Origin: Candidatus Chlorohelix allophototropha
Lineage (GTDB): Bacteria; Chloroflexota; Chloroflexia; Chloroheliales; Chloroheliaceae
Direction of reading: 5' to 3'
Length of the DNA stretch: 64,000 nucleotides
NCBI RefSeq assembly: GCF_030389965.1
Contig: NZ_CP128402.1
Location: 62,001 to 126,000 of the forward strand
Position 1 is the stretch's first letter; every line of letters starts with the position of its first letter. The notes below the pieces were generated by a model. It saw nothing but the letters and a program-made list of their open reading frames with translations, did not search any database and was not told the DNA's origin. Positions 9,816-64,000 of this stretch are shown here, piece after piece. Made by a program: the position numbers and the translations under genes.

Positions 9816-9828
9816 AGACATTTTAGAT

Positions 9829-9851: not shown

Positions 9852-10042
9852 GTTTCTATTGTATCTTTCTACAACTAAATGCTCTAATAGCATTACAAAT
9901 ATTCAATTAGTGAGTAGTGATAGACCCATGACCAAAAGATTGAGTATATAAACACAGGTAGTCATTGGGAACGCCTGTACTCTACCTGAGTCTAATTGTA
10001 ATGTGATTCTCAACTTTGTCAAGACATGAGAATTGTTTGATG

Positions 10043-14574: not shown

Positions 14575-14610
14575 AGTTCTATCTCTTTTCTGCTCAAGAA
14601 CGGACGGTTG

Positions 14611-43898: not shown

Positions 43899-44054
43899 AA
43901 TTATTAGCTATACAGCTGATTGCCCTCCTCCCGACAATTGATTTTTCGGTAGTTGGCAATGCTTGTATGGTTTTAGAAACTGAATTGCAGACATTGAGGT
44001 GGGTCATTTTTTATGCTGGTTAGTGGGTCACTTTAAAACGCCTGTTGACAATAT

Positions 44055-44457
44055 CTCCCACCCATTTCTCATCAGGCTTGGTAGCCGTGAAATCCCGCTT
44101 TAGCCGGTTGGGTGCCACCGGGTTGTTGTGCTGGCTATTAGTCGTTAGAACCTTGCGCTTCTTACGTCGATGACAGGAGACTAGCCCCAGCAACCGCATC
44201 AGTCTGGCTACCCGCTTCCTAGAACAGTTTATCCCCTTACGCCTTAGCGCCGCCTTTACTCTGGGACTACCGTAAGTTTGCCGGGACTGCTCGAATATAG
44301 GCTCAATTTCTGCTCCCAGTTCCCGGTCAGCCTTGGCTCTGGCACTTTTTGGTCGTTTCCGCCAGGCGTAATAGCCGCTTTCAGAAACCACCAGCACCTT
44401 GCACATTAACCTTACCAGAAATTCCTGCTTGTGCTCATAAATGAACTGAAACTTCAC
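44055..44457 (-). pseudogene. IS3 OrfB transposase, N-terminal part
   Basis: The part begins at GTG 44457 and encodes the HTH_21-like region (VSESGYYAWRKRPKSARAK, SRQTYGSPRVKAALRRKGI) followed by the start of the catalytic core (KPDEKWVGDI). The last about 11 codons of the apparent frame come from the IS21 end. It overlaps the read-through end of OrfA as GTGA. Confidence 0.85.
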
Positions 44458-45021: not shown

Positions 45022-48000
45022 TCAATACAAATTATCACTTCGTAAAAGTTTTACAAGATCGTCAATCTCATCGGGAGTTACATACGGTACTTGGGCATAT
45101 ACAAGTGAAAGATTGCCTTCAAGTTTAGCTAATAAATGCCCTCTGCCAAGTAAGCGCTCTGCCCCACGTTCTCCTAAAGCAATCTCAGAGGTACCCTCAG
45201 AATCTACACGAAGTATTAAACGGTTACCTAAATTCGCTCGTAATTGCATTGGGACAACATTGGCTTCAGGCCGCTGCGCCGCAAACACTAAATAAATTCC
45301 CGCAGCACGTGCCTTTACGCCTAAACGCTGAACAGACGAGGAAACTTCTTGCTTATACTCGTCAGATAACATCCATTCAGCAAACTCATCGTGAATTAGC
45401 CACAAGGCTGGTAATCGTTCTCCAGAGCTAACTTTCTCATTATATGCCCGAAAATTTTGAACTCTAGCTTTCCTCATTAGTACATAGCGATTATCCATTT
45501 CGGTAATTAAAGTTTGGATGCGGTTAATAGCGGTATCTTGCTGGTCAATAATCCCACCGTCTAAATGAGGAAGGCTTTCGAAGGTGAAGTAATCAACCCC
45601 CTGCTTTGGATCAATTATCGTGATTCTTGCTTGCTCAGGTAGGTTAGTTGCAGCGATACTTAGTATAATATTTTGTACTAGAACAGACTTACCACTACCA
45701 GTTGTGCCAGCAATTAAAGTGTGGGGAGCATGATCGCTGCCCGGGGAAAGGATAAGTAATGTTCCATCATCTTCACGGACACCAATAAGTAGGTCCTGGT
45801 TTCCATTTTTTACGTCGGGTGTCCATCGTTGCCAGAGTTGGCGTAATGATACTGTTTGACGGCCGGGTCTTGCTATTGATAGTGACACTACACCAGGCTC
45901 CGGTTGTACACCAATTAAGTTGAGACCATGAGTCGTCAGAAACTCTGTTCTTCGCCGTGTCACTTGATCAATTGTAAGGAGTGAACTACCCTGGAATTTA
46001 AGTAGCGCTGCGTTTGGAGTTAATACACTATGAACAAGTTTTGCCTGTAGCTTAAACTGCTGTAAGGCAATTTTTGTAGTTGTTTCAACCTGTCGTAACC
46101 AGGACTGGTCTTCTTCACTTTCCTTGATGTCACGTGGGATTTCTTGAATCCACTTAAGTATACTAGGAAATGCCCATTTTTGAGATTCTCGAACCCCTGA
46201 CTCACTATCCGTTTTGAGCTTATCTGCACTGGGTACTGGCTCAATAATCACTATGGCGGAGTCATTTGTATTTTCTATTTTTTCTACTGCTGAATTATGA
46301 CTTTCGGTTACAAATGAATCACTAGGAATATTTACGTCTATATCATTTTTTTGATTTCTATCATTATTAGTGACCTTCCCACTTTGGTAATCTATAGAGC
46401 TTTGGGATTGACCAGGTCTATAGTGATTATTGCTCGTAACTAAATCCCAATAATTGACATCAATCTCACGCCTTACACCCATTGGATCGCCACGATGATA
46501 ATATCGCAGGACCAATTCTCGCACATGATCGCGGCCAAATACCTCCTGATGAGCGTCAAAACCATCTTTCGCTTCAGGCAGTCGTATGTGCGCGGAGATA
46601 TTTACTGCATCAGATGGACCAGATATGAACACATGAGAATATCCACGGAGCTCAAGAATGCACTGTCCATCACGAATTGCTCTCTGCCACTTTGATAAAT
46701 CTAGTGGGGCCCCAGAAGGAAGACGTATTCCATCCACTAACAAGTCTGAAAGGCGTGCTAGCCAAATATCACGGTCCAAACGCGGGGGTGTTGAAATAAC
46801 AGCGCCTGCAACACGCTTAAGGGTATCACGTAGTTGTTTATGAGATTCCTTACGTTTGCTAGCGAGACCGCCAAAGTCAATATACTTAGCCTCAGTTATT
46901 ATCACTACCAGGAGCATTTTATTTTCCGGCGTAAACGTCGGATGTAATACAAGCAGATCCGCAATTTGCTCTTCCTTTTGGCCCAGCCAATCGGCATAGT
47001 CATCCAGGAAAAACCAACCAACACTCTGATTATGACCAAGTTCGTAGCTAATGAGATATCGGCTTAAAACTATACCTATTAACTCACTGGCGCTCTGCCC
47101 TCGTTGCGCTGCACGTAAAACAATATCCCCCGATACATCATTTGCATCATTGATAAAGCGGGTAGCAAGTTCAGTTATATCGTTGTTGCTAATTCCCAAA
47201 TCAAGATTCCGGAGGCGATTCACCACCATAGAGCGTAAAAGACCCATGGGGGCCATAGAAGAGATAATCAAGTTACGCCCTTGCGTAGCTATATGTTTGT
47301 ACCGGATGATTTGTACTTTCTGCTCAATCAGCTGACGCCGGTCAAGCAGTTCGTCGTAATTAACCACCCAGCTAGCAAGGTTGTGAGTCTCTTCAAAAAT
47401 TTTTGCAGTTGTGCTGTCGCGAAAGTCGAGTTGCCGTGCTGGTAACAGGCGTGTTTCACGGCTACTATTCCAATCTCCTTTAAAGAATGTTGTTACTGCA
47501 GTAAGATGTGCCCAAGCTTCAGCTCGCTGAACAGGGCAACAAAGATATACTGTTGATTTCATATCACCGATAGTGGCTGGACGTCGACGAGACCATTGGG
47601 CAGGATTTAATGATGCTGGATCAGCAGGTTGAGAATTCACTAAATACCAATCCAGACGAGCATGGCGTGCAATCACATCTTGAAGAAAAACAATGTCTTG
47701 TGGGCAACCATCTAAGGGGTCAGGAGGCGGAGCTTGATCTGCTGAGATACCAATGCGTAGCCGAGCCATAAAATCTTGTGTAGCCTCGCTTGCAACATAT
47801 CTATCCCCCCCATCACCATCCGATGCATCCACGATCTGTTCATATAACCAGCTGAGTTGTTTTGGATCTCGATGTCTAAGTACAATCTGGCAACGAGTGT
47901 CCTCATCATCTTGATAAAGACGTCCAAATTTATCTACAACTGCCAGAGGCAGACGTGAAGAATCGCAATTATAAAGAACTACCGAGAGATTAGCTTGTTC

Positions 48001-50415
48001 ATGTGGATGCAGCTTGAGGTAGCGTTGAACAAGCTCTACTACCAGTGTTGCACCCTCAGAAGGATTTTCGTTTGTATCATCTGCACCAGCATCCGCAGCA
48101 AGAGGTGACTCATGAAGTGAGTAGTCTCCAGCAGTATCGGTTAGAGCTAAAAGCTCAGGTTGGTTATCTTGCCAGCCAAGTACAACTTCCGGATAATGTA
48201 TATGTGCTAGCTCCTCGCGCAACTCTGAAAAGAAAAGCCGAGGATCGCCAAATTCAATTTCTTGTGTTGTCAGTAAAGTGCGTATAACATTTGCGAAACG
48301 ACGTGCTTTCCGGGCCATTGCTGCTAAGCGTAATGGATGCCAGGGGGCAATAATTGCTGTAGGGCGACCACCTTCAACGCCTACAGTACCTAGTTGAAGG
48401 ATCGGACGTAAAAGCAATTGTCGATTACGATCACCCTGAGCCAGACAACAAATTGATTCAAGAAGTGTCCCATATGTGGTAACCTGATCTTCGAGTTTCA
48501 ATGAGGAGAGCCCAGTTACTTTAAAATCTATAACAGCTGCCTCATATTCTCGTGCAAATCTTTCAAATTCTGTAGCAAGTTGTTCAGCGTTACTCACGCT
48601 TATTAGATTTTTCGATTTTGCCTCATCCAATTTTGAATGCCATAAAAATTTCAGATCGTTAGCTTTTTTATATACACCAACTAGAGAACCTCTATCTTGC
48701 CCATAGGCTGCCATAAGCGTACGAACATTCCAGAGATCGACATTCTGTGCTGCTCCTTTACTACTTGTAGACTCGCGATTGGCCCGACAAATGATGAACG
48801 GTTTTGTCACCAACCGATTCCAATCATTGACAAACTCGCTTGCAATCCATTGAGGGTTATATCGCCAAATGAATTGAGCGACAGCTTGTTCATCTGCCCC
48901 ATCGAGAGTTTTAAATTCAAGGGTAACGAAGAATTTTAGTTGTAAAGTTGCTTTTGCTTCAGAACGATTCAACTGCTGCCCACGAACTTTCCATTCTTCG
49001 ATAAGGTCAGGAAACTTGAAAAGCGCGCCTACATTCCACTCAACATGACGACCAAGCAATTCTTTAAGACCCGCATAGCGTCTTGCAAAATAGAGACCGG
49101 CATCAACATTTAGGTTTCTTAAGTCTTTACGGTAGAGACTATCGCAACTTATAAGCAGCTTACGATTAGTACATGGTGTTTCCCAGCTAAAACCTTCCAT
49201 ACAAGTAACTAATCCGCTAAGAAAATCATGTGTTTCCTTTAGGGTTCCAAAAACGAAACGATCCCAGGCAGATTTAAGTTTGCGATCTTCACGCAATTCA
49301 TCGCGGTGAGCATCATAAAATTGGCGATCATCCTCAATATCCGCTTCGGAACTACGACGCCTGCTTAAGCGTTCAATGTAATCCAACTCTATCGTAGTTA
49401 ATAATTCTGGATTACGCTCCTTATAAAAATCCAAAGTCGCTTTCCCAAGGTTGAATTTCTCCCGTCTGAGACCATCAAAGAGTGGTCTAATATCTTCCCA
49501 TTCGCACTCGGATAAGTTTGCGGATTGTGGGGTCCAACCTCCCGGTGCTGCAATGAAATCAGAAATGACTTGATGATATTTCTCAGGAATATCGTTTTTA
49601 ACCCGCTCGAACGCTATTCTTAATTCATCTTCATTTAACATGACCCCAGAGGGATTTTGTTTGATCAGGTAGCAAGAGTACTTACTTTGAACCATTTTAT
49701 ACTGAGCGCGCCACTTTGCTACCTGGCCACGCGTACCCGGTGCCATTCCCCGGAATTGACCGGCTTTTTTAGGCAGCCGAAGCGCAGGTAGCGCTGAATC
49801 TAAGGCTTCGTCAAAAGGAAGACCCTCTTCTTCAATTAACTTTTTTGTCCGTAATACATAGTTTGCATACCGGTCAAGGTTTACGAAATTCTGATCGTTG
49901 AGACCCTTTAAAGCTTTTTCCCACCATCTCCGGACATCGTCTAAAATGGCTAAATCTTTACACGCAGCCAAAACCCATAGATCTGCTCGAGCCAGCAAAT
50001 CTGGAGCCCCAATAGAACTTACTTCACGGAGGGATTGTTCCTCGTCGTCACCAGTATTAGCAAGTAACAAAGCTGGTTTCGCACAGGGGGCGTTTCGAAA
50101 GTAGGTCGCCCTTTCTTCTGTGAGTATTTCTGAAGGCAATTCAAATCCAGACATGAAGTGCTTGGGCAGTTTGATGTCAAATTGCTCTGATAAATGGGGG
50201 TCAGCCAGGATTGCCTGAGCGATTGCCGCGGTCTGCATCGGTGATAAACAATCAATGATGAAACGTGCTGTTCCACTTATATTTCCACTTGCATCATCGT
50301 CATCTAATCGTTCGCGCAGATACGAGGCAACAACATTCCCTAGGAGTATCTCGCGCGATTGAGATACTTTTTGTGTGCTATCAGTTGTTGAAGCTGGGGT
50401 TTGCTCATTAGTCAT
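45022..50415 (-). CDS. DptH-like FtsK/HerA DNA translocase, 1797 aa
   Basis: The C-terminal about 230 residues are an FtsK/SpoIIIE-type motor: Walker A GTTGSGKS (about 1570-1577), Walker B LWLIHDEF (about 1671-1678), and FAAQRPEANVVP. The very long N-terminal part (about 1500 residues) has no motif I recognise. Size, domain order and place as the third of three genes match DptH, the helicase of phosphorothioation-dependent restriction, which with DptF and DptG cleaves unmodified DNA. The start ATG 50415 overlaps the preceding gene by 8 bases. It is the last gene of the operon. Alternative: another HerA-type defence motor. Confidence 0.65.
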   Translation of the reverse strand: MTNEQTPASTTDSTQKVSQSREILLGNVVASYLRERLDDDDASGNISGTARFIIDCLSPMQTAAIAQAILADPHLSEQFDIKLPKHFMSGFELPSEILTEERATYFRNAPCAKPALLLANTGDDEEQSLREVSSIGAPDLLARADLWVLAACKDLAILDDVRRWWEKALKGLNDQNFVNLDRYANYVLRTKKLIEEEGLPFDEALDSALPALRLPKKAGQFRGMAPGTRGQVAKWRAQYKMVQSKYSCYLIKQNPSGVMLNEDELRIAFERVKNDIPEKYHQVISDFIAAPGGWTPQSANLSECEWEDIRPLFDGLRREKFNLGKATLDFYKERNPELLTTIELDYIERLSRRRSSEADIEDDRQFYDAHRDELREDRKLKSAWDRFVFGTLKETHDFLSGLVTCMEGFSWETPCTNRKLLISCDSLYRKDLRNLNVDAGLYFARRYAGLKELLGRHVEWNVGALFKFPDLIEEWKVRGQQLNRSEAKATLQLKFFVTLEFKTLDGADEQAVAQFIWRYNPQWIASEFVNDWNRLVTKPFIICRANRESTSSKGAAQNVDLWNVRTLMAAYGQDRGSLVGVYKKANDLKFLWHSKLDEAKSKNLISVSNAEQLATEFERFAREYEAAVIDFKVTGLSSLKLEDQVTTYGTLLESICCLAQGDRNRQLLLRPILQLGTVGVEGGRPTAIIAPWHPLRLAAMARKARRFANVIRTLLTTQEIEFGDPRLFFSELREELAHIHYPEVVLGWQDNQPELLALTDTAGDYSLHESPLAADAGADDTNENPSEGATLVVELVQRYLKLHPHEQANLSVVLYNCDSSRLPLAVVDKFGRLYQDDEDTRCQIVLRHRDPKQLSWLYEQIVDASDGDGGDRYVASEATQDFMARLRIGISADQAPPPDPLDGCPQDIVFLQDVIARHARLDWYLVNSQPADPASLNPAQWSRRRPATIGDMKSTVYLCCPVQRAEAWAHLTAVTTFFKGDWNSSRETRLLPARQLDFRDSTTAKIFEETHNLASWVVNYDELLDRRQLIEQKVQIIRYKHIATQGRNLIISSMAPMGLLRSMVVNRLRNLDLGISNNDITELATRFINDANDVSGDIVLRAAQRGQSASELIGIVLSRYLISYELGHNQSVGWFFLDDYADWLGQKEEQIADLLVLHPTFTPENKMLLVVIITEAKYIDFGGLASKRKESHKQLRDTLKRVAGAVISTPPRLDRDIWLARLSDLLVDGIRLPSGAPLDLSKWQRAIRDGQCILELRGYSHVFISGPSDAVNISAHIRLPEAKDGFDAHQEVFGRDHVRELVLRYYHRGDPMGVRREIDVNYWDLVTSNNHYRPGQSQSSIDYQSGKVTNNDRNQKNDIDVNIPSDSFVTESHNSAVEKIENTNDSAIVIIEPVPSADKLKTDSESGVRESQKWAFPSILKWIQEIPRDIKESEEDQSWLRQVETTTKIALQQFKLQAKLVHSVLTPNAALLKFQGSSLLTIDQVTRRRTEFLTTHGLNLIGVQPEPGVVSLSIARPGRQTVSLRQLWQRWTPDVKNGNQDLLIGVREDDGTLLILSPGSDHAPHTLIAGTTGSGKSVLVQNIILSIAATNLPEQARITIIDPKQGVDYFTFESLPHLDGGIIDQQDTAINRIQTLITEMDNRYVLMRKARVQNFRAYNEKVSSGERLPALWLIHDEFAEWMLSDEYKQEVSSSVQRLGVKARAAGIYLVFAAQRPEANVVPMQLRANLGNRLILRVDSEGTSEIALGERGAERLLGRGHLLAKLEGNLSLVYAQVPYVTPDEIDDLVKLLRSDNLY

Positions 50416-52051
50416 TTTTCCATCTCCCGTAGGGATTTTCTACATAAGCACATGCATCTGAAAGTCTACGTAGCAAACCTAAACTAGCTAACCTCTGCTC
50501 TAACCGACGTGCATTAGCCTGAAATGCTTTTCGGTCGAATTCCTCTGTAGATAGCACTTGCTCAGCTTCGTGGTCACCGATCACTAACCCATATTTCTTA
50601 AACAGATGGGCTAAAAACTCATCAAACTCCATACGTCGATCTACTGTAGCGAATAAGAGTGTTTTTATCAATTGATCTGTAGGAGCGTAACGAAAACGTG
50701 TTGTTCCCCTCCTTGAAATAAGACCAATTTCTCTGCCATAACTACGATGAACTTGCGCTACATGCTGCTTATGACCCTTTCGAATCTCTCCCTTTAACTC
50801 GTCTAATAGTTTATCTGGGTCATTAGCTCCTTTGTAGTCGTCGCCCCACCAAACCGCCTCTCGCACAACGTTTAAGCAACGCACATATGCACCTGAATCC
50901 CCTTCAGTTAAAGCCGATTGCCAAGAATGGGATTGGCGGATACGTTCAACAAAAAACTCAGCAGCCTGGGTAGATATACCATTGTTAAGACCATAACTCT
51001 CCAAGGCGATCTCTCGCACAAGTGTTTTCTTCGGGGCTATAATTTCACAAACCAAATAGAATGGATTTTTATTATCTGCCCAAATTGATGCGACCGCTAG
51101 GTGGTAGCGTAATAAATGCAGTGCGGAAAGGGTTACCAAATGTGGATATCCGTCGAACGCAGGCAACTGTAATTTGTAAATAGCGAGCCAATCTCGTGCA
51201 AGATCGTCATATACAGGATGATAAAGATATGGTAAAAAGCAACTCTTGTTTTCACCTTCTTGGTCATTTTTATCATCCGGTTGTAATGACGCAACTAGTT
51301 TATCCCATCGATTACTTCCTTCAACCATAACTCGAACGGAATTTGTTAACTCACTACGATAGGACGAGCGAGATAACATTGTATAAAGAATTTCTCCACT
51401 CCGACCAAAATTAATATATTCGCGACTTGGTTGACCGTTAAGGTTGATATTGAGATCGATGTAAAGTGAATTCTGTCCAAAAGGGAAAACAAATCGCGAA
51501 GACCAGCGTTTATTGCTTTCCCGCTCTACCGCCGTGCCTCGAATGATACGAACTACTTTCGCAAACTCATCAAACGAATGAAAGCGCTCTCTAAGATATG
51601 AAAAATCACGCTCTGGCACGCCTTGCGCTGAATCTTCCATACTCTTGAGCCATTTTTGCCAGGCTCTTCCACTATCCCCTTGCTCTTCAGCAATGCGGAA
51701 CACTTCATCATTGTTGAAAAGAATATTGCGCAGATACATGCGTTGTCGTGGCCTATAGCGTAAGGGGTAGGGGGCGTTATCTGAGAAAAGTTGCCCTTGT
51801 CGATGGCGTGCTTCAGCAACATTCAAAAATTCAAGGAAAACAAGCCAGGGACTTTGTGAATCCCATATGCGGTGTCCCCAAATCTGTTCATCTAGCCATA
51901 GATCAATTTTATGATCTTTTTTATTTGGGCGGAGTCCTGAGGGTGATTCGACAAAAGGCAAGGTATCCAATACACCAGTCCAGACACCTGGGCAGAGTGT
52001 AATGGCGGATTGTTCGGTGTTGAATGATTTAGTTTCAGAAGTAGACGGCAT
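50408..52051 (-). CDS. DptG-position protein, 547 aa
   Basis: I do not recognise a domain with certainty. The protein has a central aromatic-rich region (YPLRYRPRQRMYLRNILF) and an ordered C-terminus (YAPTDQLIKTLLFATVDRRM, then FDEFLAHLFKKYGL). There is no Walker motif, signal peptide or membrane segment. Its size and place between an ATPase and an FtsK-type giant match DptG of the DptFGH restriction set. The gene is 28 bases after the ATPase gene and overlaps the next by 8 bases, so all three should be co-expressed as one complex. Assignment rests mainly on context. Confidence 0.5.
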   Translation of the reverse strand: MPSTSETKSFNTEQSAITLCPGVWTGVLDTLPFVESPSGLRPNKKDHKIDLWLDEQIWGHRIWDSQSPWLVFLEFLNVAEARHRQGQLFSDNAPYPLRYRPRQRMYLRNILFNNDEVFRIAEEQGDSGRAWQKWLKSMEDSAQGVPERDFSYLRERFHSFDEFAKVVRIIRGTAVERESNKRWSSRFVFPFGQNSLYIDLNINLNGQPSREYINFGRSGEILYTMLSRSSYRSELTNSVRVMVEGSNRWDKLVASLQPDDKNDQEGENKSCFLPYLYHPVYDDLARDWLAIYKLQLPAFDGYPHLVTLSALHLLRYHLAVASIWADNKNPFYLVCEIIAPKKTLVREIALESYGLNNGISTQAAEFFVERIRQSHSWQSALTEGDSGAYVRCLNVVREAVWWGDDYKGANDPDKLLDELKGEIRKGHKQHVAQVHRSYGREIGLISRRGTTRFRYAPTDQLIKTLLFATVDRRMEFDEFLAHLFKKYGLVIGDHEAEQVLSTEEFDRKAFQANARRLEQRLASLGLLRRLSDACAYVENPYGRWKND

Positions 52052-52079
52052 TTCTTCTTACCCATTTATTCCTATAATA

Positions 52080-53948: not shown

Positions 53949-53978
53949 TAGTTACCACTTAATCAATTAAAGGTAAGG

Positions 53979-54794
53979 TTAAATTGAACAAATAAGACAT
54001 CCCTCAGGTTCATCAATCTCCTCATAATTTACTACACCACCAAGTGTTTCGACTAAAGTGAGATTTTTACGTTGTGTAAGCTTACGTGCTTGCGAAGCTT
54101 CCCATTTTGCCTTTATCTCGGCTATGCGTTCAGGGCGCTCAAGACTGGCCAGAGACTCCGACTCTTGCCAGAAAAATTCTTCACCATGCAAAACACTTTG
54201 TTCCTCATAGCGCTTGGCCTCTTCAAACAAATCAGGATGTGTTTCTTTAAGACGTACCCATTCTATTTTTTGCTGATAAAAACAGAAAAAACAACCGGAG
54301 CGGGTGCGACCCCAGGTTGTATACTGGGGGAGTCCAAGCCCAGATTCCTCTAAAATACGAAAAATATCAGCTTTTACTAACCCATCTTCTCGAAAAGGAT
54401 AAACAGTTTGGATATTTGGCTTGGTACTGATGTAACCTGTACGTTTCTCGTCAGCACGTAACGCAACATAGTTAATAACCGGATCGCTGCCCACGTAATG
54501 CTCAAAAGGTTTTAGTTTAAGATTTTTTGTGCACCAGCGACGGTGATTCGAAGGTAACATGCCACCGTAAACTGTCAGCCAATGATCGAAATTATCCACC
54601 CTGGAAGTTTTGGTAATCGGCTTACCCAAAATAGCTTGGAGTCGGCCCAGATATTCGATGGTTTCCGGAAGTTCTTTATCTGTATCGTGAAAAATGTACT
54701 CCATTTCAGGAATACGATCCCTCATATATATAGCTAATGCTGCACTGTCTTTACCACCTGAAAGACTAAGTATGTGTCGTATTGGTTTATCCAT
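53979..54794 (-). CDS. DndC-like PP-loop sulfurtransferase
   Basis: This 271-aa protein belongs to the PAPS-reductase/ATP-pyrophosphatase family. The PP-loop SGGKDS is at 12-17. RWCTKNLKLKPF (C88) and RSGCFFC (C168, C171) are the cysteines that in DndC help bind an iron-sulfur cluster; a further CLIC pair (C266, C269) ends the chain. DndC transfers sulfur from the DndA cysteine desulfurase to DNA backbones. It is much shorter than classic DndC (about 480-500 aa), closer to minimal or SspD-type members. It lies between the receiver-like gene and the DptF-like gene. Sulfur chemistry is well supported; DNA as substrate is inferred from the neighbours. Confidence 0.8.
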   Translation of the reverse strand: MDKPIRHILSLSGGKDSAALAIYMRDRIPEMEYIFHDTDKELPETIEYLGRLQAILGKPITKTSRVDNFDHWLTVYGGMLPSNHRRWCTKNLKLKPFEHYVGSDPVINYVALRADEKRTGYISTKPNIQTVYPFREDGLVKADIFRILEESGLGLPQYTTWGRTRSGCFFCFYQQKIEWVRLKETHPDLFEEAKRYEEQSVLHGEEFFWQESESLASLERPERIAEIKAKWEASQARKLTQRKNLTLVETLGGVVNYEEIDEPEGCLICSI

Positions 54795-54804
54795 TATCTA
54801 TCCC

Positions 54805-56949
54805 TCAGTTAGTAGGATCAATGTTGATAATTAGTATTTTTTGTTTAGCTTTTTTTTCTTTATCTTCGTCTGTTAACCCATTACCTAACATGAGAACCCA
54901 ATCAGGGTTTAAAAGACTTTGTAATTTACCTGCACTGGGAAGGTTGTGCTGTGATATCCAAAGATTACCCCATTGTTGAAAATCATTTAAAACATTTGCC
55001 AAAACTGGATTACGTTTTCCCTCTTTACCTTCTTCATATCTGTTAGATAATACATTTCTGATTTTTTCTACAAGTGATAAGGTTAACATAAACTTAGAGC
55101 CATCCCTAATGCTAATAATACCAGCACTTTCAGCATCATCTAAATGAACTTCTTCAAAGTTCCCACCATTTTGTAGTAAAAGTTTGATATTTGCTTGTCG
55201 GTAAATGGGAGGTGCTACTGGCAGCCCAACTCGGGTGAGATCTGCCGCGAAGCTACGCTGAATTTCTAATGCGAAAGGTAAACGGAGACGAGCTTTTCGA
55301 TCAAGGTTTGCCTCGTTGTACCATTTCATAAAACTACCATAATGAATAGATCTGACTTTTTTTGGTTCCCATATAATCCTGTAAGCTTGATTCTCGTGTG
55401 TAAACAATTCTGTACGAGGACCACGGTTTTCTTTGCTACTAACGGGTTGCAATTCCCCTTCTATTAATAGAATGGCTTGTTCTGAATCTATCTTACGTTT
55501 ACCTTTATTTGGAGTAAACGTAAGATCACATTCATTATTAATAATCATATATAGTTTTGGTAAGCTCTCCTCATAGTTTTTAGATAATAAACTTGGGCTC
55601 TCAGTAAGTGGCTTATTAGGTTTTACTAGTTCATTATCTGTAGGTGTCACTTGCTCTGAAATTGAGAATAATTGGCTTTTTTCGGTCTCAGTAATTGGAG
55701 GTATTTCTTGCTTGTTTTCTATCACTGCCAAGTTATTTGTAGTTTCAAACAAAGACTCTTCTAGTTCTTCACCTATAGTAATAGCTTGCTCTAATGGAGT
55801 AGGCTGGGTTGTTTGTCCTAGAAATACATCACCTAAGCTCAAGTATGGCTCTATACTGTCTGGATCTGAAACTTTATTGGGAATTTTGGGATGCGGACTA
55901 ACAGTGCCTACTTCTGTATCAAAAAGGGCATGCTGATATATTTCTGCCAATCGTATGGAAGGAGGGGTGTGAATTGGGATAGCATGGGTGAAATCGGCAA
56001 CATTTAGCTTATCACGTGTATCTTTTAGACCTTTGTCAAAAAGGAGATAACTAAAATATGAGCTAAATAGCCAGAACATATAGCTTCCTAAGGGTTCACC
56101 CTCCTCTTGGAGACATAAGCTCTGTATAAAGGCATAGTCGTTCAGGGTCAATTCCTTGATATGTTCAGTGAATATTGATTTAACTTCATCTATTTTCTTA
56201 CACACACTGTCGACAAAGTCTTGCATATGATGACCAACTGGTAAGGAAAGGGCATACATTTGCAAGTTCATGGTAAGTTTGAACAGGTCGCGTAAATCCT
56301 GCTTGTGTACAGCGTAAAACATACCACCCAATAAACCTGATCTTTTCCGGAAATCATCCTTTTCCTCAACAACACCTGGTCGACTTGACATTAGTACCAC
56401 TAAGGGCTTAGTCGCTTGTCGTGCTTCATACGCTGTAAATATTTCCTTTGCCTTTCTTACTGCAGGTTCAACTATATCTACGCCTGTTGTAGAAGGGTTT
56501 AAATGCCAGTCAAGAAAAAATATGTTAATCGATGTATCGTTGATTTCGTCTCCGGGGGTAAATGTTTGCACCTTAAGATTGAAATTTTTTTCCAGGTGAT
56601 TTTTGATAGGATCTAACAAAGCAGTACGTTGGTCTATCCATATTCCTAATTCGGACTCCCGCCAGATTTTATCTAGAGCTGGATACTTATTACGCTGACT
56701 CAGGAACTTGCATATAAATGTAATTGTGATTTGTTCAAATCCAACAACACTGTCATCAAAGCTCTCAAGCTCGGAAAATGCAGTATCCTCATTCTGAATA
56801 GCTGCCCAAAGATTCTCAGCGTTATAACTACTTATTTCTAACTGTTCAAGGGGTATATAGTCATCATCGATAATGCCTACATTAGTTATTCCATGTTTAG
56901 CAAGTAGAGTAGTAACATGGTTCTCTGCGTTGGTAGCACTATTGGTCAT
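54805..56949 (-). CDS. Receiver-like domain protein, 714 aa, partner of the GHKL protein
   Basis: The N-terminal region has the key residues of a response-regulator receiver: acidic D28-D30 (VGIIDDDY), a phosphoacceptor-like D147 (IFFLDWHL), S188/S189 (VVLMSSRPG) and K216 (YAVHKQDLR). An insertion of about 110 residues separates the first strand from the third, unlike standard receivers. The middle is acidic and low-complexity. The last about 180 residues are folded but unrecognised (FALEIQRSFAADLTRVGLPV). It overlaps the histidine-kinase-like gene upstream by ATGA. I infer it receives a signal from that protein and passes it to the modification or restriction proteins. The receiver call is from motif reading only. 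Confidence 0.55.
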   Translation of the reverse strand: MTNSATNAENHVTTLLAKHGITNVGIIDDDYIPLEQLEISSYNAENLWAAIQNEDTAFSELESFDDSVVGFEQITITFICKFLSQRNKYPALDKIWRESELGIWIDQRTALLDPIKNHLEKNFNLKVQTFTPGDEINDTSINIFFLDWHLNPSTTGVDIVEPAVRKAKEIFTAYEARQATKPLVVLMSSRPGVVEEKDDFRKRSGLLGGMFYAVHKQDLRDLFKLTMNLQMYALSLPVGHHMQDFVDSVCKKIDEVKSIFTEHIKELTLNDYAFIQSLCLQEEGEPLGSYMFWLFSSYFSYLLFDKGLKDTRDKLNVADFTHAIPIHTPPSIRLAEIYQHALFDTEVGTVSPHPKIPNKVSDPDSIEPYLSLGDVFLGQTTQPTPLEQAITIGEELEESLFETTNNLAVIENKQEIPPITETEKSQLFSISEQVTPTDNELVKPNKPLTESPSLLSKNYEESLPKLYMIINNECDLTFTPNKGKRKIDSEQAILLIEGELQPVSSKENRGPRTELFTHENQAYRIIWEPKKVRSIHYGSFMKWYNEANLDRKARLRLPFALEIQRSFAADLTRVGLPVAPPIYRQANIKLLLQNGGNFEEVHLDDAESAGIISIRDGSKFMLTLSLVEKIRNVLSNRYEEGKEGKRNPVLANVLNDFQQWGNLWISQHNLPSAGKLQSLLNPDWVLMLGNGLTDEDKEKKAKQKILIINIDPTN

Positions 56950-59378
56950 GCTGTCACGCCTCCAAGAGTAAGTACAAATGTATTATATGTTCCATCAGGT
57001 TCTGTGGTTTTTTCTGCAAGAAAAACATCTTCTCCATGATACTTGGCTATCTCACGAGCGATAAAAAGCCCTAAACCTTTTCCCTGACCTGGGGGTTTTG
57101 TGCTAACGAATGCTTCAAATATTCGCTCTTTCAGCCCTGGGAGGATTCCTGGTCCATTATCAGTTACTCTAAGCTCTTTCGCTGTAGCATCGACAGTAAC
57201 CTTAATTTCTGCTTTGAAGGTTGGATCAAGCATTCGTTGCTGACGTAGCCAATAAATAGAATTGGTGATCAAATTGTCAAGGATTTGCATCATCATTCCT
57301 TTTACAGCATTGATCATAAATTTGTTGATCTTTGAAGAAGGTTCTAACTCTAATATGGGTGTAATCTGCTCATTAGCAAAAGGAATTTGTTTTGATTCAA
57401 AAATATCACGAATCACATTGATCAAATCAAATTTTTCCTTGCGCTGTCGGCCAGCTGTACTTAGTTGGTCAAGGATCTGGAGGCGCTTCTGTAAGGTTTT
57501 GAGCTGCACTTCAAGGGTTCGGATAAGTGCGTCTTGTGAGTTTGGAGAGCTACCTTCCCGAACATTAGCAAGAGTTAACAAAGCGTGTTCTGTTGCACGA
57601 TTAAGCTCATGCGCAAGCACTTCTACTGACAACCCTATTCCCGCCAAGTTTAAAAGCTGTCTGCGACCCTGCTCGTATTCAGAGGCGATTACCTGAACCT
57701 CTTGCATAATTTCTCGCAAGTGCGAACTTGATGTTCGAATTTCGTTGAAAAGAGACCCTTCCCTTTTAATTTCAGGAACTCGCCCGGCTAATTTATCTAA
57801 ATTGATCCGAAGTTGTCGATCTTCATCTTCTACCCTCTTCTCAAGTTCTTCAATAAGTACTGGTTCTCGTGCGCTAAGCTCTTTATCCGTTTTATCGAGA
57901 AATGCACGTAATTCCATTTGGATTACATATTTTAATAACGAAATTAATACAAACTTTTCCTCAGAGTCTCGAAGTCCCTCACGGTTTGACTGGTCTATTA
58001 ACTCAGAATTCAGGACACTTGTGATATTTAAACGCCCAATCAATTGTGCGCGATTAACTTTATAACCAGATGAGCTAAATGCTCTACGATCTAGATCGAG
58101 CCAGTCATCACGTAAATCACCGTAAGGTAATACACGAAAACCGTCCCGGAAAACCATAATTCCGCCACCCCATTCTCGTACTAGGTTGGCAACAGTATTG
58201 CGATCACCAATTCCTTCAAGTGCAGTCAGTATCCGCCGGTTATACCAATAAATTTCTAAATTGAATGGTCCAAGGGATTTCAGTAGTCGCATTCGTTCCA
58301 TACCCTCAGAGGGTAAAAGATTGTTTGTAAGATCTAATGATTTCTTAACTCTGGGTTTTTCTAAAGGGTTTAGTACTACAGAAATTAGATGGGCACCCTC
58401 AAGTGCAAAGTATTGTTGTCGCTCTCTATAACGTACAGAACCAGATAATCTCATCTCGCCATTGCTCTGCTGTATAAATTGTGCCTTGACAATAGCATGA
58501 GCATTCTCAAGTAAAAGGTTTTTGAATCGCGGAATTATTACTGGTTCTTGGTTGAATCGAAGCTGGATGGGAAATATGGTGGTTTCAGTAAATGGATCGG
58601 TTAGCTTACTGAACTCCTGTATGGCTAAGGTTTCAAGTCTGTCTTTAGACCATGCTGAAGTCAACCAACTAATTCGAATAATTGTGCCAGATACACTAGT
58701 GTCCCTTTTAGACGCGCCAAGATGGGGTTCAATTTTGAATTCGCTTAAAAGTGCATCGGAATCGTGAGAAAAAACCGACCAATCTATGTCTAGGACATTC
58801 CATTTGCTTTCATCTGCCTGTGTTGATTCCACATGTAATTGGGTACCAAGTCGCATTGCAGACAAACGTCCTATACCTTTTTCACCCAGCAATGGCCGCC
58901 CGCTTGAATTGTTATGCCCTTTATCACGTAATAAACGTCGAGACCTTGTACCAATTGTTAGATACACATCATTAAGTGTTTGGAGAGACATCCCCTCACC
59001 AGTATCGCTGACAACTATTGAATTACTTTCTGTTAGTACACGCAGAAGATCAGGCCAGGTTTCTGCTTCCAAAATAGTCTGACGGAACTCCTGTATATTA
59101 GGTACAGTCATGTCAATAGTAGCTAACGCTGTCTGCTTAAATGCTTCAATTGAAGTGACGGCACCAGAGTCACTTTCTACACTAATGTCTTGGCTACGTG
59201 AATATTCAATAAAATTCAATAAAATTGAATGGGGAATGCGGACAGTTACGTCAATCGTAACGCGTTTCGAACCGGCATCAAATGCATTTTTAACCAACTC
59301 AAAAAGTGCCACACCGTCTGAACTGATAAGTTCAGCACCTAAGTGGAGGAGGGTTCGAGCAGCAACTTGAAATGGCAC
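56946..59378 (-). CDS. Dual GHKL ATPase: MORC/MutL-like N-terminus fused to a histidine-kinase C-terminus
   Basis: Two ATP-binding GHKL domains are visible. The N-terminal one has the MORC/Hsp90/MutL motifs ALFELVKNAFDAG (E27, N31, D34), SDTGEGM (124-130) and GEKGIGRLSA (165-174). After a helical region, a HisKA-like helix with VLAHELN (H590) is followed by the kinase-type domain: N-box LDNLITNSI (about 700), DNGPGI (740) and GKGLGLFIAREI (about 766). Start is GTG 59378 after GGAGGAGG; the previous stop overlaps it by one base (TAGTG). The protein may sense DNA or modification state and signal by phosphotransfer to the 714-aa protein. The fused architecture is unusual. Confidence 0.8.
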   Translation of the reverse strand: MPFQVAARTLLHLGAELISSDGVALFELVKNAFDAGSKRVTIDVTVRIPHSILLNFIEYSRSQDISVESDSGAVTSIEAFKQTALATIDMTVPNIQEFRQTILEAETWPDLLRVLTESNSIVVSDTGEGMSLQTLNDVYLTIGTRSRRLLRDKGHNNSSGRPLLGEKGIGRLSAMRLGTQLHVESTQADESKWNVLDIDWSVFSHDSDALLSEFKIEPHLGASKRDTSVSGTIIRISWLTSAWSKDRLETLAIQEFSKLTDPFTETTIFPIQLRFNQEPVIIPRFKNLLLENAHAIVKAQFIQQSNGEMRLSGSVRYRERQQYFALEGAHLISVVLNPLEKPRVKKSLDLTNNLLPSEGMERMRLLKSLGPFNLEIYWYNRRILTALEGIGDRNTVANLVREWGGGIMVFRDGFRVLPYGDLRDDWLDLDRRAFSSSGYKVNRAQLIGRLNITSVLNSELIDQSNREGLRDSEEKFVLISLLKYVIQMELRAFLDKTDKELSAREPVLIEELEKRVEDEDRQLRINLDKLAGRVPEIKREGSLFNEIRTSSSHLREIMQEVQVIASEYEQGRRQLLNLAGIGLSVEVLAHELNRATEHALLTLANVREGSSPNSQDALIRTLEVQLKTLQKRLQILDQLSTAGRQRKEKFDLINVIRDIFESKQIPFANEQITPILELEPSSKINKFMINAVKGMMMQILDNLITNSIYWLRQQRMLDPTFKAEIKVTVDATAKELRVTDNGPGILPGLKERIFEAFVSTKPPGQGKGLGLFIAREIAKYHGEDVFLAEKTTEPDGTYNTFVLTLGGVTA

Positions 59379-62300
59379 TATGCACCTCCTCCCTGTGGAA
59401 CTACATCAGATTTGTCTTTTTTATTCAGGCTTTGTTCAAGCAACTGTACTAAAATTGCTAAACGTAATTCTTCAGATTCTGGTAATAAGCCTTGCAGTTC
59501 TGAAACTTTGTTTTTTACTTCCAATTCGATTTCAGGTCTAACCTGAACAACTTGCATAGCTTCCATTCCATTAGAATGAGTTAAACCCACACGAACGGCT
59601 GGGCCACTAGTTGTATAGTTGTGTTGTGAGAAGGTAATAGCTTCTAACCGTTGGAATGTATTACAAAGAATTTCAATCTCTTCGCCAGCTTTTTTCTCAT
59701 CACCCGGTAGCCAGTTTCGGGTAGGTTTAGCTATAACAAAGCTTCCTAATGCTTCTGCCCATGAGTCAGAGTTAAGTCTTGTATCCCCTAACCGCAAAGC
59801 GAAAGTTCGCAGTCGAGATTCAGAAGCTGCAACAGCAACGTTTGTTGCACGACTAGCAATACGCTCTCGATCGATAGCTCCTTCACCCTCACCTAGAGCA
59901 TTGGCAACTTTTGAGCGAATCCGTTCAAGCAATAACGGATAAGTATTGCGGAGGTCATTTAGTGCTTGTTGCAATAGTGTAACAAACTTTTCAATTCGTT
60001 CAGTATCCGGCGTTTCCTCGGCAGAGAAGCTTTCAACACCGCAGGCTTCAGGTAATTCTTTGAAAAGCAGCGGCCTAGGCTCACGCGCTTTAAATAGAAC
60101 TTCGCGTACTCGAGAAGCAATGGTGGGAAGATTTACAGTTCGTCTGGTATATTCTGGAAGTTCTGCCGCAAAGTTAATAAACGATCTTACGACATCTAAC
60201 AATTCAAGATCTTTATCTGGGGAGTCTACAAAAATTCTCGCCAATCTGTTGAAAAGTCTCACACGAACGCCCGCAACACGCACCATTTGGAATTCAAAAG
60301 TTGCAGGAGCCTTGATAAGACGAAGAAAATTGGATGGATTCAGACCTGTTATGAATGTACCATTTTCGTAAACTGCTAACTCATGGGAGTGTCCAGCAAC
60401 CACTATTGCCAATAAAAGCGGAATAACACCCATGCGTATTCCAAATGGTCTGGAAGTAAGTGCAGTAATAATTGTTGGTACAGATACTCGTTGCTCTTGA
60501 GCTTCTTCAAGAATATTTAGGATTTTTAGAAGAGCAGGTCGAAGTTGTAATGTATCATTTTCCTCTTCTGGTTCTTCTATTATATATTGCCCATCCAATT
60601 CACGGTGGATTACACCTGCTTTTAAGACAGACAAATACATAGATTTTTCTGGGGGTGCTTTGTCTTGATTAATACCCAAAAATGGTTTGTTGGGTGCTTC
60701 GAGCATTCTCTCGATTAAACGCATACGTGCATTGGCGGCAGCACTACTCAATATTGATCTATTGAGCAACTCATTCTTTATATATGGAGCATCATTATAT
60801 AGTTCATCACAAACAGCTGATAAAGTTAGTAATATTCCATGTCCTTGTTCAATAGAGAGAGGTTGTCCTTTACGCCACCACTCAATCTCCATTCCTGTGT
60901 CAGCATGACCAAAGCTAATCAATGCTGTCAAGCGATTTCTAAGTGTCCTGCGTGTAGCAGCAATTTCACGGGATACCTCAGCTGAGGCATATATATCATC
61001 TGTAAGCTCTGGTGCATTTGATTTTACCCATTCCCAACATCGTACGTCTTGCACCTCATTTCTAAGTCCAATTAATGGAAATGGCACTGCTATTAATATC
61101 TCTGGTCGAGAAGCTGCCTCTGATCCTTGCGCAAATTCTCTAGCTTTAATTTGTTCAGATGGGGTATCGCATAGTGCTACTACAACCAAGCCGTCCGCTG
61201 CCGTAGGTCGTATGGCATCTTTACTTAAAGATGTGAAATCTGTATATCTGACCTCAAAATATCGCATAGTACCAGTTTTAATGTAATGACGGCGAGCCAG
61301 CAAAGTGGGAACAGGAACATCTAAATAATTTGGCAAATGTATTGCAACCTGCTCTATTGGACCCAAAGCTCTCTTCGCATCTTCAAATCGTGTTTCTAGG
61401 TTAATGCTTGTAGTAGACCAAAGACGATACCCTCCTGCAGTACCCCGCTTAAAAAGTAAACCACGGTCTTTTAATTTAGCTATGGCAGTCTCTACCTTAT
61501 ATGTTGGATCGTTGTCAACAGTGGCTGATAACAAGGCTACATCTGTAGCTAAATATTGTTCAGAATCTATAAGATTAAGCACTGCTACTGTTTTAAGAAT
61601 AGCTAGTGCAACTTCATCGTTTATGTCAGCGCTATCTAAAATATCGACTATTCGTAACCATTGGCTACGGAAACTTGCTCCGTCTAAACGATGTCCGAAA
61701 TTTGCACGGATATAATCGTAAAAGTTCGAAAGGCGGTAATAGCCACCTGCTTTTATTGGGCGTTCCGCAAAAGCTTGTAAACCGTATGGTTCGGTAGAAA
61801 GAAGAAAGCCAAACAAAGAGCGCTCATGCTGTCCAAAGCGGGAGAAAAAATTAATAAGTACAGGAATAACCGTTGGATGTAGAGGATAAAGCTTAAGTAA
61901 ATTAAGCTCACTCAATGTATTGCCAGCCGTGCTATACCAACCTGTAGAGAGGGTTGACTTTATAATTGTTTCCGCATTATGAATGATTTCTTGAGGTAAT
62001 TGTTCAGTTATAACATTTAATGCACTTGAGACGAGGGTTACCGTATGTGTAAGTGGTTGATCAAAAACAATCTCATCAAATCGTCCTGCTACCTTTTCCC
62101 ATTCGTGGCGAACTGCAGATGGAAGCCGCTCAGCGTAAGCGTGAAATCCTTGATGCAAAAGCCCAACTAAAACAACTGGATGATTTCCGCTCCGCGCGGC
62201 CATTTCTGCCAAACGTTGGAGAAGATAGACATCTTCTCGGTCAGGATAAAGCGCTGCATATTCTAAAAGTTTTCCCATTTCATCCAGAACAAGCAGTACA

Positions 62301-62872
62301 CCTGAATAACCTGGAATATTAGCTAAATCTCTAATTAGCTCAAGAAGCTCTTGATTATCTCCACTATTTTGAAGTCTCTTAGCACGTTCTTTTAGAAGGT
62401 CTCTAATATCATTTTGGCTTAGCAGACAATCTAGACTCCACAATATTCCCCGTGCAATAGCAGAGACTAAACCCTCGCGTGCTCCTGTAACAATTACTGG
62501 TATTAACTTGAGGTTAAGAAGCTTTGAATTTGCATTTTCAATAGCTAACCGCGCTGGAGTAACAGCAGGTTTCTCTGGGTTGTAAAGTACATGCGCAAGA
62601 AGAAGGGCAAATGAAGATTTACCTGAGCCATAGTCACCAGTAATTCTCCAGGCACGGCGTCCTGAGTTCGGCCGCAGACCTTCCGTTATCCTAATAAGAG
62701 ATCGCTCCATAGACGGCGTTAAAATGTATTGCTCTAACAACTCAACATCATGAAAATCGCGTTCAATATGTATAGATCTTAGGTAACGGTCTGGGATTCG
62801 GAAAAGATTTTGAATCAGTCTATGATCTTCTTCTAGTCCGACTAAAAAATGGGTTTTAGGTTGTTCATCCAT
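59378..62872 (-). CDS. Large AAA-type ATPase, PglY/BrxC-like, about 1164 aa
   Basis: This is a P-loop ATPase with Walker A GDYGSGKS (about 79-86) and Walker B LLVLDEMGK (about 192-200), followed by a helical region. The Walker A form with a Tyr before GSGKS resembles BREX ATPases of the PglY/BrxC class. The remaining about 900 residues have no motif I can name. The open frame reaches ATG 62911, but I prefer ATG 62872, which overlaps the DUF4007 stop by 8 bases. In BREX such ATPases work with the methylase or phosphatase; here no PglZ or BrxX is visible and sulfur genes are. It could supply energy or regulate the modification complex. Confidence 0.65.
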   Translation of the reverse strand: MDEQPKTHFLVGLEEDHRLIQNLFRIPDRYLRSIHIERDFHDVELLEQYILTPSMERSLIRITEGLRPNSGRRAWRITGDYGSGKSSFALLLAHVLYNPEKPAVTPARLAIENANSKLLNLKLIPVIVTGAREGLVSAIARGILWSLDCLLSQNDIRDLLKERAKRLQNSGDNQELLELIRDLANIPGYSGVLLVLDEMGKLLEYAALYPDREDVYLLQRLAEMAARSGNHPVVLVGLLHQGFHAYAERLPSAVRHEWEKVAGRFDEIVFDQPLTHTVTLVSSALNVITEQLPQEIIHNAETIIKSTLSTGWYSTAGNTLSELNLLKLYPLHPTVIPVLINFFSRFGQHERSLFGFLLSTEPYGLQAFAERPIKAGGYYRLSNFYDYIRANFGHRLDGASFRSQWLRIVDILDSADINDEVALAILKTVAVLNLIDSEQYLATDVALLSATVDNDPTYKVETAIAKLKDRGLLFKRGTAGGYRLWSTTSINLETRFEDAKRALGPIEQVAIHLPNYLDVPVPTLLARRHYIKTGTMRYFEVRYTDFTSLSKDAIRPTAADGLVVVALCDTPSEQIKAREFAQGSEAASRPEILIAVPFPLIGLRNEVQDVRCWEWVKSNAPELTDDIYASAEVSREIAATRRTLRNRLTALISFGHADTGMEIEWWRKGQPLSIEQGHGILLTLSAVCDELYNDAPYIKNELLNRSILSSAAANARMRLIERMLEAPNKPFLGINQDKAPPEKSMYLSVLKAGVIHRELDGQYIIEEPEEENDTLQLRPALLKILNILEEAQEQRVSVPTIITALTSRPFGIRMGVIPLLLAIVVAGHSHELAVYENGTFITGLNPSNFLRLIKAPATFEFQMVRVAGVRVRLFNRLARIFVDSPDKDLELLDVVRSFINFAAELPEYTRRTVNLPTIASRVREVLFKAREPRPLLFKELPEACGVESFSAEETPDTERIEKFVTLLQQALNDLRNTYPLLLERIRSKVANALGEGEGAIDRERIASRATNVAVAASESRLRTFALRLGDTRLNSDSWAEALGSFVIAKPTRNWLPGDEKKAGEEIEILCNTFQRLEAITFSQHNYTTSGPAVRVGLTHSNGMEAMQVVQVRPEIELEVKNKVSELQGLLPESEELRLAILVQLLEQSLNKKDKSDVVPQGGGA

Positions 62873-63785
62873 GATTGTATCCAGTCTCATAAACTGTCGC
62901 CAAAAAGTCATAATCAGGAATATTGTTTCGCGTTACCTGACCTTGCACCGCTGATAATTGGTATTCAAATGGTTGAGCTACACCAGACATTACATACAAT
63001 TCAAGGCGTGTTCTCAAATCATCCTCTGGTAGCTTGAATACTTGGCCTATACTACACTCTGCGACAGCAATATCTCGGAATGTAAGGGTTCTTTCGGTTT
63101 GATGCCACCTGTTCCAATAGTCATCTAAGCAATATTCGAATACAGCCTTTGTCAATTCAGGTTTGGCCTCTCGACGGAACAAATAAACATCCTCTAAAGG
63201 TCCTTTCAAACCTATTCGTCGTTGGCCTGATTGCCTCAATAGAGCAAGTTCAACAAACGGACTGTCCAGAGAATCTTCAATAGCTGTCCGTTTTTGTGAC
63301 GGTAAATATGTACGAAGAAATATATCCAGATGCTGCGCTAAAGTGACGGAAGAATGTGAATAACCTAGCCGCTTTCCTTCCCGTTCAAATGCCGTTACGA
63401 CTTCACTTCTACTTAATTCTGGGTACGGCCAGCGATTTAAAAGGAAGTTCCAAGCGAAAATTGGATCAGCCTTTCGGGAGGATAAATGCCAATGGAGTAG
63501 CCAAAGAGTTTGTATATTCTCAAGATAAGGATCAAACCCATCTTCTGAGAAAACTCTTCTGCCAAAGGTTGTTAAGTTGAACACCTTCTGCTGTCGATTA
63601 GGAATTGCCACTCCCATTACTTCAACCCAAAAACGAATTGAGTTAACCATGTTTTTACCAACGCCAAGCTTGACCATTGCTTCTTCGTCATTAGTTAATA
63701 CAGAAGGATTCTCTGCAATAGCACTACAAGCTTTTGGCAACCAAGTATAGCGACAAATAAAAGTCTCGTGTCCAGAAAATCTCAT
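62865..63785 (-). CDS. DUF4007 family protein
   Basis: The N-terminus RFSGHETFICRYTWLPKACS and the KLGVGKNMVNSIRFWVEVMG stretch are the DUF4007 signature. This family of unknown function is often found beside PAPS-reductase-like and other DNA-sulfur genes. The protein is 306 aa with no membrane segment or catalytic motif that I can see. ATG 63785 overlaps the upstream desulfurase stop (ATGA), so translation is coupled. Its role is unknown; it may help sequence recognition or regulation. Confidence in the family is good. Confidence 0.8.
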   Translation of the reverse strand: MRFSGHETFICRYTWLPKACSAIAENPSVLTNDEEAMVKLGVGKNMVNSIRFWVEVMGVAIPNRQQKVFNLTTFGRRVFSEDGFDPYLENIQTLWLLHWHLSSRKADPIFAWNFLLNRWPYPELSRSEVVTAFEREGKRLGYSHSSVTLAQHLDIFLRTYLPSQKRTAIEDSLDSPFVELALLRQSGQRRIGLKGPLEDVYLFRREAKPELTKAVFEYCLDDYWNRWHQTERTLTFRDIAVAECSIGQVFKLPEDDLRTRLELYVMSGVAQPFEYQLSAVQGQVTRNNIPDYDFLATVYETGYNHG

Positions 63786-64000
63786 ATAGCTGCAATTGCC
63801 CTTCGTGTATCTTCTACGGCCGCAGCAAAATAACCTGCTGCGCGCTCGATTTCATCATCAGTTGTAAATTTGCCTAACCCGATACGGAAGGCTCCGTTTT
63901 GCAATTCTTCAGCTAAGCCCATAGCGTTAAGAACGTGTGATGGTGTATCCACAGCGGACGTACAAGCAGCCCCCGTTGAAATAGCCAAACGGTTACGTAA
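63782..64000 (-). CDS. Cysteine desulfurase, C-terminal end (partial, DndA/IscS-like)
   Basis: Only the last about 72 residues lie in the window. They hold the catalytic-cysteine loop (STGAACTSAVDTPSHVL), then FRIGLGKFTT, matching the C-terminus of IscS/NifS/DndA PLP enzymes that release sulfur from cysteine. The protein continues beyond 64000 to the right. As the most upstream visible gene of the operon it should supply sulfur to the dndC-like enzyme. Whether it is a dedicated DndA or a general IscS cannot be told from this fragment. Confidence 0.85.
   Translation of the reverse strand, partial: LRNRLAISTGAACTSAVDTPSHVLNAMGLAEELQNGAFRIGLGKFTTDDEIERAAGYFAAAVEDTRRAIAAI

Follow-up and report, generated by a model that had tools for sequence, protein, structure and literature searches.

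The window analyzed here, a stretch of 64,000 nucleotides from Candidatus Chlorohelix allophototropha, contains an island that, judged by its genes, is an SspABCD–SspFGH phosphorothioate system, with DNA phosphorothioation as its predicted chemistry. Two further genes lie within it, encoding a histidine kinase (K) and a response-regulator-like protein (R); the island is a named system combined with a recognizable K–R module in a largely undescribed context. In a survey of genome assemblies, the same pair was found to recur with sspBCD across 12 phyla. We propose, at about an even chance of being right, that a restriction system acquired a separable two-gene phosphorelay module operating by the relay outlined below.

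Gene content and layout of the island

Eight ORFs on the minus strand are complete (45022–63785), and a ninth, sspA, runs beyond the end of the window, which holds its 3′ end. In the direction of transcription, the order is sspA-B-C-K-R-sspD-F-G-H.

63782..64000, minus strand: 3′ end of sspA (cysteine desulfurase); PLP-lysine motif, cysteine 334, ATGA overlap with sspB
62865..63785, minus strand: sspB (DUF4007), 306 aa; Pfam PF13182 (2e-66), PADLOC SspB (2e-107)
59378..62911, minus strand: sspC (BrxC/PglY-like P-loop ATPase), 1177 aa; PADLOC SspC (E = 0), Walker A GDYGSGKS at residue 92
56946..59378, minus strand: K, paraMORC–histidine kinase, 810 aa; HATPase_c_3 (2e-16), HEF_HK (0.0038, below cut-off), HATPase_c (2e-21)
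58731..59030, minus strand: N-terminal HATPase_c_3 (paraMORC) ATPase of K, residues 117–216; Pfam match
57459..57638, minus strand: DHp/HEF_HK-like region of K, putative phospho-acceptor H590 at 57609–57611; H590-E591 invariant
56967..57293, minus strand: C-terminal HATPase_c kinase domain of K; Pfam match, conserved boxes
54805..56949, minus strand: R, two-domain response-regulator-like protein, 714 aa; AlphaFold2 pLDDT 83.7, pTM 0.80
56290..56892, minus strand: receiver domain of R, putative phospho-acceptor D147 at 56509–56511; conserved residues, AlphaFold2
54808..55848, minus strand: C-terminal output domain of R, 347 residues; GD ... CDL ... W ... RxG motifs
53979..54794, minus strand: sspD (PP-loop/PAPS-reductase-like sulfurtransferase), 271 aa; PADLOC SspD (6e-117), SGGKDS at residue 12
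52080..53948, minus strand: sspF, 622 aa; PADLOC SspF (3e-220), Walker A GTAGDGKT at residue 70
50408..52051, minus strand: sspG, 547 aa; PADLOC SspG (3e-192)
45022..50415, minus strand: sspH, 1797 aa; PADLOC SspH (E = 0), Pfam FtsK_SpoIIIE (6e-33)

The full sspA gene encodes 393 aa (63782–64963 in window numbering, C4:125782-126963), with its last 219 bp in the window and 963 bp beyond; in the protein, SGHK at 212 is the PLP-lysine motif, and STGAACTSAVD contains cysteine 334. In the 5′ half of the run, A/B overlap by 4 bp (ATGA), B/C by 47 bp, and C/K by 1 bp (TAGTG), and K/R share a second 4-bp ATGA overlap. In the 3′ half, gaps of 10, 30, and 28 bp separate R/D, D/F, and F/G, respectively, and G/H overlap by 8 bp. 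The nine genes thus arranged look like one tight operon. A first-pass annotation of this DNA had described a single coupled operon, and the frames, strand, and order are as it gave them; its statement that the junctions are overlaps or gaps of at most about 30 bp also holds, except that the B/C overlap is longer than it implied.

PADLOC profiles assigned B, C, D, F, G, and H as Ssp proteins (E from 2e-107 to 0), which identifies the island as SspABCD–SspFGH and not Dnd/Dpt, and bears out the earlier view of a DNA-sulfur system, phosphorothioation itself being predicted. The modification genes sspB, sspC, and sspD are present together with sspA, as are sspF, sspG, and sspH, with a Walker A motif in SspF and an FtsK-like end in SspH (a C-terminal FtsK/HerA-like motor with Walker A GTTGSGKS at residue 1570). 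The first-pass annotation named the right kinds of protein but misplaced two families: The trio that it called DptF/G/H-like is SspF/G/H (SspF matched the DndF profile at only 8e-4), and the PP-loop protein that it called DndC-like is SspD (the DndC profile matched at only 2e-3). The contrast it drew with classic Dnd loci is moot, since the island is an Ssp system. Among the operon proteins, PADLOC gave no match to DndD or DndE, to the BREX type 4 markers PglZ and BrxL, or to SspE.

SspABCD–SspFGH phosphorothioate defense has been demonstrated experimentally in V. anguillarum FF-93 (Wang et al. 2021; PMC8092258). The two loci share the sspA/iscS, B, C, and D modification set and the sspF, G, and H restriction set; the kinase and receiver genes are absent there, whereas here they lie between sspC and sspD.

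K and R as a two-component-like pair

K comprises an N-terminal HATPase_c_3 (paraMORC) domain, a DHp region with similarity to HEF_HK, and a C-terminal HATPase_c domain (Pfam). The HEF_HK match of the K in the window scored 18.1 bits (E 0.0038) against a cut-off of 24.1, and seven of nine homologs matched the model, the best at E 7e-5. The N terminus also matches NCBIfam BbrUII (3e-21); PADLOC gave K no Ssp name. Across 36 K sequences, the invariant residues include E27, N31, D34, D125, G127, G129, G165, K167, G168, and G170 of the paraMORC ATPase, H590-E591 of the DHp region (36/36), and N702, N706, D740, G742, G744, G768, and G770 of the HATPase_c domain (N, G1, and G2 boxes). With a highest Kyte–Doolittle 19-residue mean of 1.48, K likely lacks a transmembrane segment and is soluble.

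The R of the window matched nothing in Pfam or PADLOC; the Response_reg_2 model did not match it either, and matched one of nine homologs at E 2.8. The 63 R homologs all have D28, D29, D147, and K216, and 98% have S188; in the AlphaFold2 model each conserved residue terminates the expected receiver beta strand. Foldseek matched the receiver domain to DivK, ChxR, and GacS-type receivers at probabilities of 0.82–0.84 but with E > 0.1; a helical insertion of ∼80 residues after strand 1 perhaps accounts for the weakness of these matches. The full-length search was discarded, being dominated by low-quality matches (e.g., CTP synthase).

The output domain of R conserves G373, D374, C474, D475, L476, W527, R573, and G575. 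Pfam, PHROGs, PADLOC, and PDB sequence-profile searches returned no recognized family for it, and sequence searches no recognized DNA-binding domain. Foldseek gave a weak likeness to MazF/CcdB barrels (MazF probability 0.77, E 0.27). HHalign against 17 PemK/MazF proteins yielded a probability of 0.2%, and we do not claim a toxin of this type. With catalytic residues intact in both proteins, conservation supports the two-component-like pair that the first-pass annotation had recognized.

Distribution of the K–R pair

GTDB contigs were scanned with the paraMORC part of K, yielding 80 loci, which were chosen by similarity to Ssp-linked kinases and represent this clade and not HEF_HK proteins at large. 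K and R co-occur in 77 of the 80, most commonly joined by a 4-bp ATGA overlap, and in 75 of the 80 sspB, sspC, or sspD lies within 10 kb, most of the exceptions being cut by contig or flank ends. The hosts belong to Chloroflexota, Planctomycetota, Myxococcota, Nitrospirota, Thermodesulfobacteriota, Bacteroidota, Rhodothermota, Verrucomicrobiota, Fibrobacterota, Acidobacteriota, Latescibacterota, and Pseudomonadota. The gene set of the operon is not a chance assembly, since it recurs in dozens of genomes. The first-pass annotation had proposed to look for conserved gene order: K–R keeps company with sspB/C/D, and the C-K-R-D order of the window is mainly confined to one branch, with K–R elsewhere placed after D, upstream of sspA, or facing D-C-B. 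Genes B, C, K, R, D, F, G, and H form a single same-strand run in the window and in loci L018, L025, L028, L030, and L127. The Ssp-linked kinases group apart from five non-Ssp relatives (SH-aLRT 99, with long outgroup branches).

When genomes were sampled regardless of K–R, the pair was in the minority: 3/34 DUF4007-positive genomes of the window's phylum (including the window's own) and 1/30 DUF4007 loci from two phyla. A K profile run against 385 alphaproteobacterial genomes reached Ssp-clade strength in the seed genome only, in a search that scored two candidates per genome and gives no frequency estimate. Viral contigs yielded one match at 32% and otherwise relatives at 23%–29%, none a clear case of a phage carrying this clade.

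Several loci depart from the common pattern. L068 alone among the loci has K–R in a 21-kb stretch free of ssp genes and is a possible stand-alone or decayed copy. A single 623-aa frame preceding K (L069:8020-9891) matches both SspC (6e-128) and SspD (1e-115), a possible C–D fusion. At alphaproteobacterial K–R/Ssp loci (L034, L035, L037, L039, L041 [7427-9853, minus strand], L043, L052, L082, and L089), we noted a second gene of ∼810 aa with GHKL-like motifs (IYDDGVGQ), the tested member of which had no Pfam match. In L048, L057, L084, L092, and L094, K–R is accompanied by a PLD/helicase and ABC-ATPase cluster that resembles Pbe (Pfam on one member), and in several of these a protein of 770–990 aa lies directly 3′ of R, with HNH, AAA, and TPR domains in L048. 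Distant relatives of K occur in a four-gene set of kinase, ∼210- to 230-aa protein, HNH endonuclease, and N6 methylase (L095:5845-11033 and L096:5836-10938), which looks like a restriction–modification (R-M) system containing a two-component pair of its own.

K–R and the restriction genes

We compared pairwise distances across the 61 loci carrying all five of the genes B, C, D, K, and R. Distances correlated strongly for K with R (r = 0.94) and for B with C (r = 0.97), and less so for K or R with B, C, or D (r = 0.39–0.60), the pattern of two units that travel together but re-assort. K–R thus evolves semi-independently of B/C/D.

Effector genes were counted in 62 well-covered K–R loci (>19 kb) and in 25 Ssp loci without K–R. 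SspFGH was no more common with the pair than without it (20/62 vs. 7/25; Fisher P = 0.80). In 36 of the 62 K–R loci, FGH, SspE, and a Pbe-like cluster were all absent within ∼10 kb, and three bare B-C-D-K-R sets (L042, L071, and L081) directly adjoin a gyrB-type gene. Nor do the missing genes generally lie elsewhere: Among 38 genomes with FGH-less K–R loci, SspG was found genome-wide in two and an SspE-model match in two. The first-pass annotation had seen in the pair a specific link between the sulfur chemistry and the restriction motor; the equal FGH frequencies, the frequent lack of a known restriction gene nearby, and the semi-independent evolution speak against that part of its account. 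A role for K–R as a substitute for SspE was also dropped, as SspE is scarce with or without the pair (2/62 vs. 1/25). By the same measures, at least 17 of the 25 Ssp loci without K–R lacked both FGH and SspE; effector-poor Ssp loci therefore exist without the pair too, and the absence of FGH is no proof that K–R is an effector.

Candidate roles of the pair

From these comparative data we favor K–R as a separable phosphorelay module that would serve Ssp systems generally, a better fit than a sensor dedicated to FGH. The module is probably a phosphorelay-gated effector in its own right. The likeliest reading, at an even chance, is the more specific proposal that K senses the state of DNA through its paraMORC ATPase and that the C-terminal domain of R is the effector. 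Under this proposal, SspABCD would place the phosphorothioate mark on self DNA, and K, as a soluble sensor, would clamp or scan DNA with its GHKL ATPase and react to unmodified or invading molecules. An ATP-driven rearrangement of the dimer would govern autophosphorylation at H590, from which the phosphate would pass to D147 of R. Phosphorylated R would then free its C-terminal domain to kill the cell, arrest it, or attack DNA, acting beside SspFGH where that is present and alone elsewhere.

Three observations lend the effector reading indirect support: The usual companions of Ssp are restriction modules (SspE, FGH, and Pbe), GHKL/paraMORC-type ATPases act in known restriction enzymes and in VcSduA, and R has no recognized DNA-binding output. 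Against it, the output domain matches nothing in sequence searches, with a MazF/CcdB likeness that is weak and fails profile comparison; Ssp loci without K–R often also lack a recognized effector, and K–R need not be one; and a site between sspC and sspD would suit a regulator of modification as well. It is with somewhat less than even confidence that we add K–R to SspE, SspFGH, and PbeABCD as a further, unnamed phosphorothioate-linked effector module, in which the paraMORC ATPase would read the state of DNA and a cytoplasmic phosphorelay would fire the C-terminal effector.

A less likely role, and the one put forward by the first-pass annotation, is that of a gate on the SspFGH motor, holding a toxic restriction complex in check until infection or damage is sensed. 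Such a brake would be useful, as SspFGH without modification damages DNA and causes filamentation in E. coli JM109 (PMC8092258), and in the window and the five loci with the same eight-gene run the pair and FGH lie on one strand together. The gate is hard to square with the equal frequency of FGH in loci lacking K–R and with the genome-wide absence of SspG from 36 of the 38 genomes with FGH-less K–R loci; moreover, sspFGH of V. anguillarum FF-93 works with IscS–SspBCD alone, with no histidine kinase mentioned (PMC8092258).

We give slightly less credence again to K–R as a tuner of modification, adjusting how active SspABCD is or how strongly the ssp genes are expressed when unmodified DNA or the nucleotide state calls for it. 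The linkage of the pair to BCD irrespective of effector (75/80) would be expected of such a regulator, as would its placement between sspC and sspD, although that placement is found mainly in one branch; R carries no recognized DNA-binding domain, and many Ssp loci manage without the pair (29/30 DUF4007 loci sampled regardless of K–R). That K–R is an independent defense system and an unrelated neighbor in the defense island appears improbable: The wider family does occur in other defense loci (L095 and L096) and L068 has no ssp gene, but the pair is Ssp-linked in nearly all of the 80 loci over 12 phyla, in varied orientations yet always close, and its kinases group apart from the non-Ssp relatives.

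A K that senses unmodified DNA and an R that acts as effector, the reading we prefer, would make a restriction-like system in which self and non-self are told apart through a phosphate relay. The relay would render the decision tunable or reversible, in contrast to a nuclease that reads the mark directly.

Relation to described systems

K–R joins three themes: DNA phosphorothioation, MORC-type ATPases, and the His–Asp phosphorelay. Detocs, a defensive two-component system, protects against phages by a histidine kinase and receiver–effector logic; it is stand-alone, is not known to involve DNA modification, and has a kinase architecture that appears to differ from that of K.

A HEF_HK/Response_reg_2 kinase–receiver pair has been described next to R-M systems, above all type II systems that have C5 methylases (Bellieny-Rabelo et al. 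2021; PMC8011034), in a text that contains no phosphorothioation, DUF4007, or Ssp. Both pairs have a soluble kinase (K probably so) with HATPase_c_3 and HATPase_c domains and a DHp region, the likeness of which to HEF_HK is below the cut-off in the K of the window, and an immediately adjacent receiver gene encoding invariant Asp and Lys. They differ in that R here lacks a Response_reg_2 match, though all receiver residues are present, and in that the neighbors here are ssp genes, the R-M/C5 methylase neighbors not being found. R is also longer (∼610–770 aa, with an extra output domain) than the partner of the R-M-linked relatives among the genes examined here (∼210–230 aa). The first-pass annotation had raised the possibility that this exact locus is already a named system; SspABCD–SspFGH is named (PMC8092258) and the family of the pair is described beside R-M (PMC8011034), but the published Ssp system lacks K–R. 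Two large surveys, one of Dnd (PMC10853773) and one of BREX (PMC12839542), contain no association between a histidine kinase and Ssp, in a literature search with limited coverage of subscription journals.

Among DNA-targeting defenses, the paraMORC restriction ATPases (the BbrUII/HgiDII family and VcSduA of Shedu; PMC12137116) share an N-terminal GHKL/paraMORC-type ATPase with K. In VcSduA the ATPase is fused to a nuclease, whereas in K it is fused to a histidine-kinase core, with R adjacent.

An SspE-less Ssp system is reported from 62% of A. baumannii genomes, and one speculative sentence, published in 2025, places a histidine-kinase two-component system beside it, in an account without families, residues, phylogeny, or distribution (PMC12421847). 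This is probably the same module: In A. baumannii VB1190 (L012, CP040048.1), K–R faces D-C-B. K–R is a concrete candidate for the absent effector of that system, and the unnamed-effector reading, if true, would also explain why no nuclease accompanies the Ssp system common in A. baumannii global clone 2. Within the 30 kb of the VB1190 locus, sspE and sspFGH are absent, and K–R adjoins a Tn7-type-like gene layout of endonuclease, two transposases, and excisionase. New here are the linkage of K–R to Ssp in 75 of 80 homologous loci, its spread over 12 phyla, the co-evolution of K with R, their semi-independence from B/C/D, the equal frequency of FGH with and without the pair, and the 36 of 62 loci in which FGH, SspE, and a Pbe-like cluster are all absent nearby.

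Surroundings of the island

Elsewhere in the window, two huge ORFs of 1202 and 1695 aa (10966–19698, minus strand) had no Pfam match at 1e-5. G+C falls from ∼0.58 before window position 40 kb to ∼0.39–0.45 within the island. The 3′ flank of the island carries transposition genes, comprising a rve/Mu-type transposase (41851–43080), an ORF (43080–43898), and an IS3-type fragment (44020–44457). On the 5′ side, outside the window and ∼37 bp from sspA, lies a 116-bp near-perfect palindrome (L002:3000-3115, C4:127000-127115) with a DNA fold z-score of −12 and five further copies in the genome, diverged or partial. It has the look of a MITE or a comparable element with inverted repeats and may affect the promoter of the operon.
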